Program-made: the position numbers and the translations under genes | Source: a virus | DNA: 37,970 bases | Direction: 5' to 3' (one strand) | Virus record (IMG/VR): IMGVR_UViG_3300042566_000283 | Location: 1 to 37,970 of that record | Shown: piece after piece, positions 1,207 to 21,307 of the stretch | Layout: each line of letters starts with the position of its first letter | Numbering within the stretch: position 1 is the first letter of the stretch | Notes under the pieces: model-generated | What the model saw: the letters and a program-made list of their open reading frames with translations, nothing else | Told to the model about the DNA's origin: nothing | Database searches by the model: none

Positions 1207-2226
1207 ATGGGTGGCGGTGGCGGAACTACAACCACGAAGCCGTGGAAAGAGGCGCAGCCTTATATTTTGCAAGGCTATCAGCAAGCGCAAAATCTATTTA
1301 ATCAAGGCCCGGCAGAATTCTTTCCTGGCCAAACCTATATTAGCCCGTCTGAAGCAACGACGAATGCGCTAAACATGGCAGAGCAACGAGCTATGGCCGG
1401 TTCTCCGCTTGTGCGAGAGGCTCAAGGCTCTGTTAGCAATCTAATGAGCTTTACAAACCCATACGCAGCGCGAACTGCGGAATTGGGCGCTACCGCAAAT
1501 GACCCTAGCGCAGACTTTTATCGTCAGCTGATGGAGGGGCAGATCGGCAAAGATTCTGAGTCTCTTGACATGCTTCGGCGTACTGCCTCTGGCGAGTACC
1601 TTAACGGCAATCCTTATCTTGAAGGCGCTCTTTCTCGCGCCAATCGCCTTGCAACTGAGTCTTATCAAGAAGGTCTGCGCGGGCTTCAATCTCAAGCTTC
1701 TGCGTCTGGCCGTTACGGTTCTGGCGCAATGGGTCAGCAAGTTGCAAAAGGTCAGGATGTTTTTGCCCGCGCATTGACTGAGCAGAATCAGCAAGCTTAC
1801 GCACAGAACTACGCGCAGGAACGAGCAGCGCAAGAGGCTGCAATTGCTCGAATGATGGGCTTTGAACAGCAAGGCATTCAGAATCGTATGTCTGGAGCTA
1901 GTGCGCTTACGGCTGGCCAGCAACAGGCTTTGGCGACTCAGTTGAACGCATTGGTTAGTGCTGGTCAAATGACTGCGGCAGATGCTAATCGTCAACTGCA
2001 AGCGGCTCAACTGGCCCCGACTCTTGCCGAGCAATATTACGCCGATATGCAAAAGCTTTTGATGGTCGGTCAAGCGCGAGAAGGTTATGATGCTGCGGCC
2101 CTGCAAGACGAAATGGCACGATGGAACTATCAACAAACAGCGCCATGGGAAAACCTGCAACGCTATCAATCTGCGATTAGTGGGTATCCAATGGGTACGA
2201 TTAGCGCGGCTGGAGGGGGTAAATAA
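1207..2226 (+). CDS. Internal virion / tail-associated protein
   Basis: The ATG at 1207 is preceded by GAGGTG at a good distance, so I prefer it to an upstream in-frame ATG at 1192; the product is 339 residues. After a Gly/Thr-rich N-terminus (MGGGGGTTTT) the protein is almost entirely helical and rich in Ala, Gln and Met (repeated QQ, AQNYAQERAAQEAA), with no membrane segment. This composition is typical of podovirus ejection or tail-needle-base proteins that follow the fibre genes. The next gene starts inside its stop codon (TAATG). Function is assigned by composition and position only. Confidence 0.5.
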   Translation: MGGGGGTTTTKPWKEAQPYILQGYQQAQNLFNQGPAEFFPGQTYISPSEATTNALNMAEQRAMAGSPLVREAQGSVSNLMSFTNPYAARTAELGATANDPSADFYRQLMEGQIGKDSESLDMLRRTASGEYLNGNPYLEGALSRANRLATESYQEGLRGLQSQASASGRYGSGAMGQQVAKGQDVFARALTEQNQQAYAQNYAQERAAQEAAIARMMGFEQQGIQNRMSGASALTAGQQQALATQLNALVSAGQMTAADANRQLQAAQLAPTLAEQYYADMQKLLMVGQAREGYDAAALQDEMARWNYQQTAPWENLQRYQSAISGYPMGTISAAGGGK

Positions 2227-8711: not shown

Positions 8712-9671
8712 ATGGTAAAACCAATATGTTCTGAAGATGAATTCATCCGATTGTGGAATGAACTTCAATCTGCGTCACTAATGGCAAAACATCTCGGAAT
8801 TTCAAATAGAAATATCCAACTAAGGCGCAGAAACATTGAAAAAAAGCGAGGAATAATTTTGTCTTCGCCAGACAAAAGAAGCCCTACATTTAACGTGACG
8901 ATACCTAATAATGGAGTAAGGGTCAGCGTTGAGGTGGATAATGGCTCTATCGTAGTAGGTTCAGATGCCCATTATTGGCCTAACATTGTTAGCACAGCGC
9001 ATCGCGCATTTGTAAAGATCATCAAAGAGCTAAAGCCGCAGATGGTCATTATGAATGGCGATGCCTTTGACGGAGCCAAGATCAGCCGCCACCCTGTTTC
9101 AGGCTTTGAGACTCGCCCTAACGTAAAGCAGGAACTCGAGGCAGTCACAGATCGGTTAGCAGAGATTGAGGCGGTATCTGGAAATGCTAGATTGCATTGG
9201 ACGTGGGGCAACCATGATATGCGATTTAATGCTCGTATAGCGACTGCCGCTCCAGAGTACGAAGGTGTTACAGGGTTTTGCTTAACCGATCATTTCCCGC
9301 GCTGGAAGTTTTCTACTAGCGTTATGGTAAACGGCCATACGCAAATAAAGCATCGTCTATACAACGGCATCCATGCTTCTTACAACGCTACACTAAAGTC
9401 AGGGGTTTCTACAGTTAACGGCCATCTACACAGCCTGAAGGTAATGCCTTGGACTGATATGACTGGAACTCGATATGGTGTTGATACTGGCTCTCTGGCT
9501 GACGTATGGGGCGATCAGTTTGCTTATACGGAGGACTCAACCAGGAACCATAGGTCTGGCTTTGCTGTGCTGACGTTCTACAAAGGCAAACTAATGCCGC
9601 CAGAGCTTTGCGAAGTTATTAGCGAAGATGACGGATTAGTTTATTTTAGGGGTCAGGTATTAAGTGTTTGA
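8712..9671 (+). CDS. Calcineurin-like metallophosphoesterase with HTH-like N-terminus
   Basis: A 319-residue protein. Metal-binding motifs occur in order: SDAHYW (about residue 83), NGDAFD (about 116), WGNHD (about 170) and NGHLH (about 241), which together define the calcineurin/Mre11-like phosphoesterase fold. Residues 5-50 hold a helix-turn-helix-like stretch (SASLMAKHLGISNRNIQLR). Phage members of this family are often annotated as DNA repair or capsid-associated phosphoesterases; the substrate is unknown. The start is uncertain: an in-frame GTG at 8679 adds 11 residues and neither start has a clear ribosome site. The 3' end overlaps a convergent gene by 19 nt. Confidence 0.85.
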   Translation: MVKPICSEDEFIRLWNELQSASLMAKHLGISNRNIQLRRRNIEKKRGIILSSPDKRSPTFNVTIPNNGVRVSVEVDNGSIVVGSDAHYWPNIVSTAHRAFVKIIKELKPQMVIMNGDAFDGAKISRHPVSGFETRPNVKQELEAVTDRLAEIEAVSGNARLHWTWGNHDMRFNARIATAAPEYEGVTGFCLTDHFPRWKFSTSVMVNGHTQIKHRLYNGIHASYNATLKSGVSTVNGHLHSLKVMPWTDMTGTRYGVDTGSLADVWGDQFAYTEDSTRNHRSGFAVLTFYKGKLMPPELCEVISEDDGLVYFRGQVLSV

Positions 9672-9886: not shown

Positions 9887-10073
9887 TTATTTCCCTTTCT
9901 GCTGCGTCTGCATATTGTTTGCAAGTTTTAATGAGCAAATCTTCAGAAAGCCCTCCCCTCGCAATTAGCCCAGACATTGCTGCCGCAAAGTAAAACTTCC
10001 ACTCATCTGACCGTTTATTATCTTGTACAAATTCAATAGGGTCATCTGTTTTGATTTTGCGCGGTCGTCCCAT
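9879..10073 (-). CDS. Conserved small phage protein, unknown function
   Basis: A 64-residue protein starting MGRPRKIK, a basic AT-hook-like tip (GRPRK), followed by a helical part with WKFYFAAAMSGLIARGGLSEDLL (split here by family style: aromatic, then Gly-Gly-Leu). Proteins of this type recur in phage early operons. Its ATG overlaps the upstream stop (TAATG). No function is known to me; DNA contact through the GRPRK tip is only a guess. Confidence 0.6.
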   Translation of the reverse strand: MGRPRKIKTDDPIEFVQDNKRSDEWKFYFAAAMSGLIARGGLSEDLLIKTCKQYADAAEREING

Positions 10074-10255
10074 TATCCTAATCCCATTTCGTGATTGCGC
10101 TCTTGGATAATTTCGTGAAGACGTTTAATTTCCATTCGCATAGCGTTTAGCTTTGTCTCAGATAGTTCTTTGCCGGCTTGATATGCCATATAGGAATCCA
10201 TTGTTGGGCGTATATCTGCTTTCATTGCCCACTCGAAGAACTCTGCATAATCCAT
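10073..10255 (-). CDS. Small helical protein, unknown function
   Basis: I start at the ATG at 10255 (60 residues) rather than the in-frame TTG at 10267. The protein is acidic at the N-terminus (MDYAEFFEWAMKADIRP) with a C-terminal charged helix that could form a short coiled coil (ETKLNAMRMEIKRLHEII). It overlaps the upstream gene by 34 nt and the downstream gene by one base, so it belongs to the leftward operon. The family is not recognised. Confidence 0.5.
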   Translation of the reverse strand: MDYAEFFEWAMKADIRPTMDSYMAYQAGKELSETKLNAMRMEIKRLHEIIQERNHEMGLG

Positions 10256-11351: not shown

Positions 11352-11427
11352 TGGCGCTCTTTGCCGGAATCGAACCGACTGTCTCCTGATTACAAGTCAG
11401 GCGCATCGCCAGCAATGCTTAAAGAGC
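11352..11427 (-). tRNA. tRNA-Thr (anticodon UGU), CCA encoded
   Basis: On the minus strand a full cloverleaf folds: acceptor GCTCTTT/AAAGAGC (7 bp), D-arm GCAT/ATGC, anticodon stem CCTGA/TCAGG with loop CTTGTAA (anticodon TGT at 11394-11392), T-arm GTCGG/CCGGC with loop TTCGATT, and an encoded 3' CCA. The G1-C72 and C2-G71 pairs and G35/U36 match threonine identity. The discriminator base is G, which is unusual for tRNA-Thr. The 3' end is 16 nt upstream of the XRE start, so both are probably on one transcript. Confidence 0.93.
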
Positions 11428-17044: not shown

Positions 17045-17450
17045 AAAGCCCAGGAAGAAGCAAACAAAAGTCAGGGCAGGAATTCCGCTGACAATCAGGC
17101 ATGGAGCAGACGAAGAAACTGCGCTCCAGTTGACTCCGCATCTTGAGTTAATGAAATTTAGAGAAGGAATCGCAGATGAACAATCCTGGCACACGATAAC
17201 TGCTCGTCTGAACGTGGGCATGACAGCAGCTTGGCAAAATGATCTAGATATGACGGTTTTCCGGCGTGGCTTAGATGCTGTTATTAACGTCAGAGAACGG
17301 CATAAAAAGTCTGGTCGTTGGGCGTTGACTGGCGACGATTATCGAGACATTGGCGAGGCTTTAACTGAGACTGATAACTTACAACTATCACTAACTAGAA
17401 AGCAATTTGCAAAATCAATCGAATATGTCTTTGCAAATGCAGCTATGTGA
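17031..17450 (+). CDS. Late-replication-operon protein, hypothetical
   Basis: A 139-residue protein with GGAGG eight bases before the ATG. The first 15 residues are very basic (MPSSKKPRKKQTKVRAG); the rest is helical, with HTITARLNVGMTAAW and LDAVINVRERH. Similar proteins with a basic tip are found at the end of phage replication operons, sometimes where lambda-type phages place the antiterminator Q, but I see no Q-like zinc finger. It ends at the -35/-10 region of the promoter for the structured RNA. Confidence 0.55.
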   Translation: MPSSKKPRKKQTKVRAGIPLTIRHGADEETALQLTPHLELMKFREGIADEQSWHTITARLNVGMTAAWQNDLDMTVFRRGLDAVINVRERHKKSGRWALTGDDYRDIGEALTETDNLQLSLTRKQFAKSIEYVFANAAM

Positions 17451-17458
17451 TCTATAAT
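17431..17458 (+). promoter_or_regulatory. Strong sigma70 promoter for the structured RNA
   Basis: TTGCAA (17431-17436), a 16-bp spacer and a perfect TATAAT (17453-17458). The predicted start (about 17465) falls five bases before the first arm of the RNA stem at 17470. The promoter overlaps the last codons of the preceding gene. Confidence 0.75.
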
Positions 17459-17464
17459 TTTCTT

Positions 17465-17547
17465 GTCTATGTGTCAGGCGTAGATAATCTACCTAAGCCC
17501 TTAAAGCTTTGGTTTTCCTCCCTTAAGTGGGAACGTGCCTGACACAC
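17465..17547 (+). ncRNA. Structured RNA, C4-antisense-like
   Basis: A perfect 10-bp outer stem, TGTGTCAGGC (17470-17479) with GCCTGACACA (17537-17546), encloses a small hairpin GTAGA-TAA-TCTAC (17480-17492) and a second hairpin closed by CCC/GGG around TTAAGT (17520-17531). The unpaired segment 17495-17518 is complementary to 17550-17573, just 3' of the RNA (23 of 24 positions pair, three as G-U). A short structured RNA, its own promoter and complementarity to the adjacent downstream transcript are the layout of phage P1/P7 C4 antisense RNA, which represses the antirepressor gene. The assignment to C4 is by architecture, not a database match. Confidence 0.6.
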
Positions 17548-17549
17548 GG

Positions 17550-17573
17550 GGAAAGCCAAGACTTTAGGGGCTT
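17550..17573 (+). promoter_or_regulatory. Predicted target/anti-sequence of the C4-like RNA
   Basis: This 24-nt segment can pair with 17495-17518 at 23 positions (20 Watson-Crick, three G-U, one mismatch). It includes the purine-rich TTTAGGGG, which could serve as a ribosome site. Pairing in cis would be an alternative fold to the outer stem; pairing in trans would be antisense control. Confidence 0.5.
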
Positions 17574-17575
17574 TG

Positions 17576-17846
17576 TCATTTCCGGTACATAGACCGTACT
17601 GATCGCGTTAGCAGTGTGTCCAAGTTCGGGACTGCCATCAAGAAAACCGAATGCGCTATGTGACAGGACGGCGCGAGAACTCGTTACAGGTATCTCAGGA
17701 ACAGGGCAGCAAGGTTGATATACGGATGGGCCACGATACGGTCGCCCTGGAAATCGAATGTAACCCCGCGAGGGATTAGCTAGTGCGAGAAGAGCGTATA
17801 GATCAACCTCTCGTCCTGTCCTATTGTCCAATGAAATATTATTGCA
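17576..17846 (+). other. 271-nt stretch without a convincing gene
   Basis: It lies downstream of the C4-like target. The longest + strand frame with ATG is 17651-17779 (42 codons, MRYVTGRRENSLQVSQEQG...), without a ribosome site. Another frame beginning near 17596 (CTG or GTG) reads CPSSGLPSRKPNALCDRTAR and ends at a TGA near 17718. A local hairpin forms around GTCC/GGAC near 17620-17636. The stretch may hold a small regulated gene, the leader of the next gene, or further RNA structure. Confidence 0.35.
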
Positions 17847-18179
17847 ATGACAAAACAAATAGACCCTAACGAAGCAATCCTTTACATGATTAAAAACGCT
17901 GAAGCCTACGCTAAAGCCAAGGCTAATGTCACATTTTTATCAGAATACAGGAAATCAAAGAAAGCTATCATTTTCCAGAACGCATTGGGAAATACAATTG
18001 CGGACAAGGAATCATTCGCCTATAGTCATCCTGAGTACCTTGAAGTTTTGGATGGTCTTAAACAGGCTGTAGAAGAAGCCGAAAGACTAAGGTGGATGCT
18101 GGTAGCGGCACAAGCCAGGATCGACGTCTGGCGCTCACAGGAAGCGTCTAATAGGAATATAGATAGGAATACGCAATGA
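17847..18179 (+). CDS. Conserved helical phage protein, hypothetical
   Basis: A 110-residue, charged helical protein (MTKQIDPNEAILYMIKNAEA, AKANVTFLSEYRKSKKA, SFAYSHPEYLEVLDGLKQAV, ERLRWMLVAAQARIDVWRSQE). Proteins of this form are common in early regions of lambda-like phages and prophages, with a YSHPEY motif and a C-terminal helix ending in Arg/Trp-rich residues. The function is not known. There is no clear Shine-Dalgarno, so its translation may depend on the upstream RNA region. It overlaps the next gene by 4 nt and starts the accessory array. Confidence 0.65.
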   Translation: MTKQIDPNEAILYMIKNAEAYAKAKANVTFLSEYRKSKKAIIFQNALGNTIADKESFAYSHPEYLEVLDGLKQAVEEAERLRWMLVAAQARIDVWRSQEASNRNIDRNTQ

Positions 18180-20709: not shown

Positions 20710-21074
20710 TTCAACTGACACGCGAAGAAGCGCAGCAACAAACTTTAAACATGGAGAAAACAATGAACACAATCGAAATCAATGGTGTTACTTATATCAA
20801 AGCAGATACAGTGCAACAACCAGTATTGGGCACACGCGCAGTCATTGTTGTAGATCGCGGCTGGATTTTTGCTGGTGATGTTATTCGTGAAAACGGGCGC
20901 ATCAAACTTTCTCGCGCCGTATGGTTGTTCCGATGGGAGTCAATCGGGTTTGATGGCGTAATTGCAAACCCAAAATCAAGTAAAGCTACGATCAAACCAA
21001 TGCCAAATGGCGTAGATATTCCAGAAGGCGCAGAGATTTTTTGCACACCTGTCCCTGATGACTGGGGGCTTTAA
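20706..21074 (+). CDS. Accessory protein with truncated TREEAQ leader, DUF6948-like body
   Basis: A 122-residue protein. It opens with MIQLTREEAQQQ, a shortened copy of the shared N-terminal module, and then continues from Met20 (position 20763, with its own GGAG site) as MNTIEINGVTYIKADTVQQP, a small beta-rich domain with VIVVDRGWIFAGDVI and a C-terminal DIPEGAEIFCTPVPDDW. Both starts have ribosome sites, so two products are possible. The leader looks like a fused remnant of a lost array gene. Confidence 0.6.
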   Translation: MIQLTREEAQQQTLNMEKTMNTIEINGVTYIKADTVQQPVLGTRAVIVVDRGWIFAGDVIRENGRIKLSRAVWLFRWESIGFDGVIANPKSSKATIKPMPNGVDIPEGAEIFCTPVPDDWGL

Positions 21075-21307
21075 TGTTTAAACCAATCGGCTACGGCAAC
21101 GGCTACGGCAACGGCAACGGCAACGGCTACGGAAACGGCAACGGCAACGGCGACGGCTACGGCGACGGCTACGGCTACGGCAACGGCTACGGCAACGGCA
21201 ACGGCTACGGCTACGGAAACGGCGACGGCAACGGCGACGGCGACGGCAACGGCGACGGCTACGGCTACGGAACAGTTTCGCTAAACAGGATACGGAGGGC
21301 TAAATGA
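21074..21307 (+). CDS. Gly-[Asn/Tyr/Asp] repeat protein
   Basis: A 77-residue protein starting in the previous stop (TAATG) after GGGG. Residues 6-65 are 30 uninterrupted Gly-X dipeptides where X is only Asn, Tyr or Asp; the flanks are MFKPI and GTVSLNRIRRAK. The sequence is of low complexity, with spaced tyrosines that could form a flexible or phase-separating/amyloid-like chain, or an antifreeze-type surface; no function is known. Its coding DNA is a hexanucleotide tandem repeat. It is coupled to the next gene by TGATG-type overlap. Confidence 0.65.
   Translation: MFKPIGYGNGYGNGNGNGYGNGNGNGDGYGDGYGYGNGYGNGNGYGYGNGDGNGDGDGNGDGYGYGTVSLNRIRRAK
21089..21268. repeat. 30 tandem copies of a degenerate hexamer (GGCNAC)
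   Basis: The 180 bp from 21089 are 30 units of GGC/GGA followed by AAC, TAC or GAC. Only the first base of the second codon varies in most units, and CAC (His) never occurs. Length changes by slippage would remain in frame. Confidence 0.9.

Follow-up and report, generated by a model that had tools for sequence, protein, structure and literature searches.

The locus considered here lies near the middle of a 37,970-base window that comprises a whole IMG/VR phage record, and it raises the question of what a promoter, a short folded RNA and two complementary segments in close succession are for. In the first-pass annotation, the segment at 17495-17518 was taken as an antisense arm and the segment at 17550-17573 as its target, in the arrangement of the C4 RNA of phages P1 and P7, which blocks translation of an antirepressor. 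Comparison with related phage contigs suggests a different answer: the element forms the 5' leader of a gene for a phage noncoding RNA and may work as a type-specific, self-recognising RNA attenuator, a reading to which a probability of about 45% is assigned. All window features described below lie on the plus strand unless stated otherwise.

The sigma-70-like promoter TTGCAA-16-TATAAT was recovered by promoter scan at 17431-17458, where it had been placed before, and matches the consensus at 10 of 12 bases. The number of promoter-like sites in 700 bp (2, vs 1.2 ± 1.1 in shuffles) is weak evidence alone; the -10 box (TATAAT/TATACT-like) recurs upstream of the leader in the first twenty-odd relatives, preceding a conserved first base by 6-7 nt. 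The transcript start is most likely the purine of RUCUAUG, 7 nt behind the -10 box and at about G17465 in the window. In several relatives, the promoter is closely preceded by another terminator-like stem.

Relatives were gathered with neighbouring proteins as bait, which yielded 82 loci, about 20 of them with the leader, and by two pattern scans of IMG/VR that raised the total to 68 leader copies (distinct contigs or places). A leader of ~110 nt is thereby common to more than 60 related phage contigs, usually with one copy per near-complete record and with two in one record, and it is absent from six related long records. A scan of GTDB genomes with the leader pattern gave no match, nor did three DNA queries combining the leader with the sequence behind it (hereafter the cargo) against GenBank phages; a fourth such query gave one weak match, to a Betaproteobacteria-1-like RNA of Acidovorax phage AP1 that is not preceded by the leader. 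In AP1 (L152), this unannotated RNA lies at about 1,500-1,620, between the primase gene and the next gene.

The genomic position of the leader varies among phages: it may follow Cro-like genes, replication genes or small ORFs, and no conserved antiterminator gene adjoins it. A late-promoter/tR' reading, prompted by lambdoid gene order and by Q-like genes in two terminase relatives, was rejected as not general because the RNA gene elsewhere follows Cro-like genes and precedes replication genes. Among cultured phages, the nearest large terminase belongs to Methylophilales phage Venkman (65%). The window further holds a tRNA gene among the early genes (11355-11427, minus strand; Rfam, 55.4 bits), a 110-aa protein with more than 300 IMG/VR relatives and no PHROG or Pfam match (17847-18179), and a 77-aa ORF of nearly pure GYGNGD repeats (21074-21307).

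From its 5' end, the leader consists of hairpin A, the 5' arm of a long stem T, a small middle hairpin M, hairpin B, the 3' arm of T and a U-run. Hairpin A (17465-17485) has stem arms GTCTATG and CGTAGAT around the loop TGTCAGG, its first base being the predicted first transcribed base G17465; across copies it takes the general form RUCUAUG-loop-CAUAGAY, and its 7 stem pairs are 88% formed among the aligned relatives, with 3 changed on both sides. Hairpin M (17520-17531, CCCTTAAGTGGG) is a fold prediction, and hairpin B (17534-17548; CGTG and CACG around the loop CCTGACA) has a covarying stem (CGTG/CACG, CCTG/CAGG, AGCG/CGCT).

The loop of hairpin A (17472-17478) is fully complementary to that of hairpin B and is hypervariable among relatives. 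Complementarity between the loops, which are 6-7 nt long, is complete in 52 of 54 copies, with 21 different loop pairs represented, and in the 40 aligned copies (alignment A4) the loop-loop helix is 97.1% formed, 6 of its 7 pairs being compensated. Cognate loop duplexes average -19.5 kcal/mol vs -12.0 kcal/mol for swapped ones, a mean cost of 7.5 kcal/mol for exchanging partners between copies, and none of 5000 permutations reaches the real pairing. Extra copies of the loop sequence elsewhere in the window do not exceed chance. In the window, the perfect 10-bp outer stem that had been described (P1) pairs TGTGTCAGGC at 17470-17479 with GCCTGACACA at 17537-17546, and the predicted fold of 17466-17549, from which the second complementary segment is excluded, is C4-like and includes the two inner hairpins previously noted (-30.2 kcal/mol, z -4.3). 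The hypervariable, type-specific part of the element is this loop-loop (outer stem) sequence and not the supposed antisense arm, a point that the first-pass annotation had overlooked.

The two complementary segments are the 5' and 3' arms of stem T. The complementarity of 23 in 24 positions ascribed to them is right when G-U pairs are counted (20 Watson-Crick and 3 G-U pairs, with one C/A mismatch), and its recurrence with compensatory changes puts it well outside what chance would give. In the 40 aligned copies (A4), the ~22-bp stem has 22 pairs, 99.1% formed and 7 changed on both sides, a conservation inflated by the partial collection of later relatives with a T-arm pattern; the first ~20 relatives, found through the neighbouring protein, were collected independently of that pattern. 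When the arms were swapped between copies, the real pairing was matched in 0 of 5000 permutations. Taken together, 41 pairs are 96.3% formed in 40 aligned relatives, and changes on both sides of a pair amount to 147 cells vs 47.6 in shuffles (0 of 500 shuffles as high). The RNA of 17460-17600 is likewise predicted to be strongly structured (-55.7 kcal/mol, z -5.7, with 0 of 200 shuffles as good); in this longer fold, the C4-like outer stem is absent and both segments form one long hairpin instead.

In 52 of 54 copies, a U-run of five or more residues follows stem T, the layout of an intrinsic terminator; in the window and in L003, the run is only 3 long. Because the window has only CTTTGTCATTT behind the stem, termination may be weak there. 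As an intrinsic terminator, T is unusually long and has a structured apical loop, and a terminator scan with a loop limit of 8 nt did not list it. The leader module ends with a further helix, P0, in which the leader 5' end GUCUA pairs with UAGAC directly behind T (in the window, GTCTATGT at 17465-17472 with ACATAGAC at 17587-17594). Its pairs are formed in 252 of 255 cases (shuffle mean 238; 0 of 5000 shuffles match), with compensations such as AUCUA/UAGGU, GUCUU/AAGAC and GUCUC/GAGAC. Since P0 draws on bases that also form hairpin A, the two are alternatives.

A second, putative pair of alternatives emerges when folding is followed along the nascent RNA. As long as transcription has not entered the 3' arm of T, the C4-like outer stem is part of the nested MFE in 53 of 54 copies; once that arm has been made, stem T is the nested MFE in 54 of 54. 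By this succession, the C4-like fold resembles an early, antiterminator-like state and the supposed antisense:target pairing resembles a terminator, and in these models the outer-stem fold and stem T look like antiterminator and terminator. P1 and T share no bases; the proposed exclusion of T by P1 is a topological argument (the 5' arm of T would need to wind inside a closed ring), since nested (pseudoknot-free) software cannot show both.

Behind the leader, the cargo of the window is a large structured noncoding "core" RNA of ~240 nt (17595-17830) with covarying helices of its own, including a predicted outer helix (17663-17671 with 17810-17818); 17 of its 42 predicted pairs are compensated in 16 relatives, and it has no match in Rfam. 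A protein-coding cargo was rejected, as no frame is open throughout the relatives. The leader is modular: it precedes this core RNA, other large structured RNAs (longer but related ones, ones into which a domain is inserted, and further types), the Rfam Betaproteobacteria-1 RNA (RF02932), or HNH endonuclease genes. In L090, L102, L108 and L123, an extra structured domain closed by long complementary arms lies between leader and core RNA.

The RF02932 RNA, to which the window's own cargo shows no match, was recognised in eight relatives of either leader family (the second family is described below). Six contigs of the present family (L133, L109, L149, L135, L131 and L137) score 87-97 bits, with the RNA beginning about 10 nt behind the leader (for example, L133 2242-2357, L109 1785-1901 and L149 5837-5952); the Rfam model covers the cargo alone, the leader lying outside it. 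This connection with RF02932 suggests that the hosts are betaproteobacteria. In L044, L062 and the second copy in L104, the 3' arm of T runs directly into an HNH endonuclease ORF, with a Shine-Dalgarno-like AGAGGG inside the arm, 7-8 nt upstream of the ATG. As the neighbours of the L044 locus on both sides are those of the window, the cargo has been exchanged behind a constant leader. L104 carries two leaders of different loop type (9301-9408 and 9980-10085), which drive a noncoding RNA in one case and an HNH endonuclease ORF in the other.

The leader diverges much faster than its surroundings, the behaviour of a specificity determinant as judged from sequence comparison. Between the window and L002, identity is 98% in the promoter, 64% in the leader, 96% in the cargo and 96% downstream; between L096 and L132, it is 100%, 72% and 100% for promoter, leader and cargo, respectively. 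Where cargos are 94-97% identical, the loop is shared in 0 of 19 pairs, and where they are 97-99.5% identical, in 8 of 25 (the pairs are not independent in either set). Recombination without selection could also produce such fast loop turnover.

A second, sequence-unrelated leader family was found in L169, L170, L172, L173 (about 2,000-2,200, minus strand), L174, L175, L177 and L178. Its cargo is a core-type RNA in six contigs and the Betaproteobacteria-1 RNA in two (L177 1302-1417 and L178 3815-3929). Complete leaders of this family share the layout of a hairpin A (loop GUGGCA, 4-5 nt of which are matched in the loop of hairpin B), a long T stem with U-run and a hairpin B; in addition, the linker pairs with M over 6-10 nt, a pairing that is different in each distinct copy. 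Given the variability of this pairing and of the A-B loops in the first family, both families hold a variable self-complementary contact.

These pairings are established by comparison, as are the order of parts, the U-run, the modular cargo and the rapid change of the leader; taken in the order of synthesis, they suggest how an attenuator of this kind might work. Transcription would begin at about G17465 and hairpin A would be the first to fold; as hairpin B emerges, its loop would kiss loop A, a contact extendable to the 10-bp outer stem. The resulting C4-like fold would keep the 5' arm of T in a closed ring and hinder its pairing with the 3' arm, and RNA polymerase would then pass T into the downstream RNA (antitermination by A-B contact), after which the leader 5' end would pair with UAGAC behind T to form P0. 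Without the A-B contact in cis, T would form and transcription would end at the U-run, releasing an RNA of ~110 nt with the A and B loops exposed. This released RNA could use its loops to pair with either loop, A or B, of another leader of its own type while that leader is still nascent; such pairing in trans would block the cis contact and favour termination, which would make the leader a self-limiting, type-specific switch. The fast swapping of loop types among near-identical phages would then express selection against cross-talk with coinfecting phages. On the other hand, loop-loop kissing inside a single RNA might serve its architecture alone.

The C4 analogy with which the locus was first explained fares less well. 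A true C4-like antisense RNA, in which the arm at 17495-17518 is released as a short RNA and blocks translation of a target elsewhere, is very unlikely, even though the element resembles the C4 RNA of P1/P7 (RF01695, with c4-a1b1 RF03163) in being promoter-proximal, in having an outer stem around inner hairpins (17466-17549, before its replacement by T) and an unpaired arm complementary to nearby sequence, and in its type specificity. The type-specific differences seen here among near-identical phages recall the heteroimmunity of P1/P7. Membership in the C4 family, to which the first-pass annotation pointed, was rejected: the Rfam model detects P1 C4 as a positive control at 68.8 bits and gives no match in the window or in three relatives at E up to 10, nor in permissive scans that included 501 bp of the window at E up to 5. 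The claimed P1/P7 arrangement does not hold either, since in the P1 control (L154) a1b1 at 1381-1433 lies upstream of C4 at 1501-1586, whereas here the complement lies immediately downstream and forms one hairpin with the arm; with the U-run present in most relatives, the supposed antisense and target read as an intrinsic terminator. A second target of the arm within the window did not rise above the shuffled level: the best non-self match, at -24.3 kcal/mol, fell inside the range given by shuffled queries (-20.5 to -25.8 kcal/mol). Moreover, unlike in C4, the arm is the conserved part of the element, the outer stem and loops being hypervariable, and a structured RNA or an HNH gene takes the place of an antirepressor. 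The first-pass annotation was right that no antirepressor is recognisable downstream, that a promoter drives a structured RNA with an outer stem and inner hairpins, that a complementary segment, shown here to covary, lies directly behind it, and that the function under control would be new. The leader and C4 may share only the idea of a type-specific phage RNA.

Other readings account for the pairings without a switch. The leader might be a structural 5' domain in which the loop A-loop B kiss coexists with T and P0 closes the domain, the whole stabilising, oligomerising or positioning the large RNA in the manner of GOLLD/ROOL or of the phi29 pRNA kissing loops. This is possible, if doubtful: 252 of 255 counted P0 pairs join the leader 5' end to the bases that immediately follow T, the T-run is degenerate in the window and L003, hairpin A, kiss and hairpin B together (about 18 bp) are roughly as long as T (about 22 bp), and phage RNAs with covarying kissing loops are known (PMC12286853), but U-runs of 5-7 in 52 of 54 copies are unneeded for architecture, loops turn over fast beside near-identical cargo, and a leader that precedes HNH ORFs and several RNAs is a better fit to regulation. 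The ~22-bp near-perfect duplex of T, together with the additional terminator-like stem upstream of the promoter in several relatives, would also suit an RNase III site or a plain terminator that sets the RNA gene apart from the genes before it, the kissing loops acting as a stabiliser; leaving 21 covarying loop types, P0 and the leader-only divergence unexplained, such processing or insulation is a decidedly unlikely account. Chance inverted repeats or a functionless remnant, in favour of which the weak U-run of the window and nothing more can be cited, are refuted by the covariation (0 of 500 alignment shuffles) and the fold (z -5.7), and their probability is negligible. Extending the attenuator instead of replacing it, an RNA-only self-antisense immunity may be imagined, in which a resident leader pairs with the incoming nascent leader of the same type and silences its noncoding RNA, loop types diversify by frequency-dependent selection, and the leader serves as a portable module for large RNAs and HNH genes; this is an unlikely, though not far-fetched, proposal.

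Plasmid antisense-controlled attenuators and RNAI/RNAII-type kissing loops are known for type-determining complementary loops of 6-7 nt. The type-specific attenuator favoured here shares with them fully complementary, type-determining loops of that length and the logic of terminator vs read-through; it differs in that both loops reside in the same sense transcript, the RNA recognising itself without a separate antisense gene. The lambda late leader (pR'-6S RNA-tR') and the HK022 put RNA are alike in layout, combining a phage promoter, a short structured nascent RNA and a terminator-like signal, while the present leader varies in location and adjoins no conserved antiterminator gene. Large ornate RNAs borne by phages, such as GOLLD and ROOL, also exist with covarying intra- and intermolecular kissing loops (PMC12286853); in contrast to these large structured phage noncoding RNAs, the present ones are smaller, have a constant leader and show no Rfam match to such families.

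In summary, a family of leader RNAs without an Rfam match (some of its cargo aside) occurs in many uncultured phages, and two sequence-unrelated leader families have one architecture in common. The orphan Betaproteobacteria-1 RNA is thereby placed in phages, behind a promoter and a leader. If the switch is real, the leader would be a self-regulating RNA whose hypervariable specificity lies in homotypic recognition between loops, and the natural loop pairs, more than 20 in number, would lend themselves to use as orthogonal parts.
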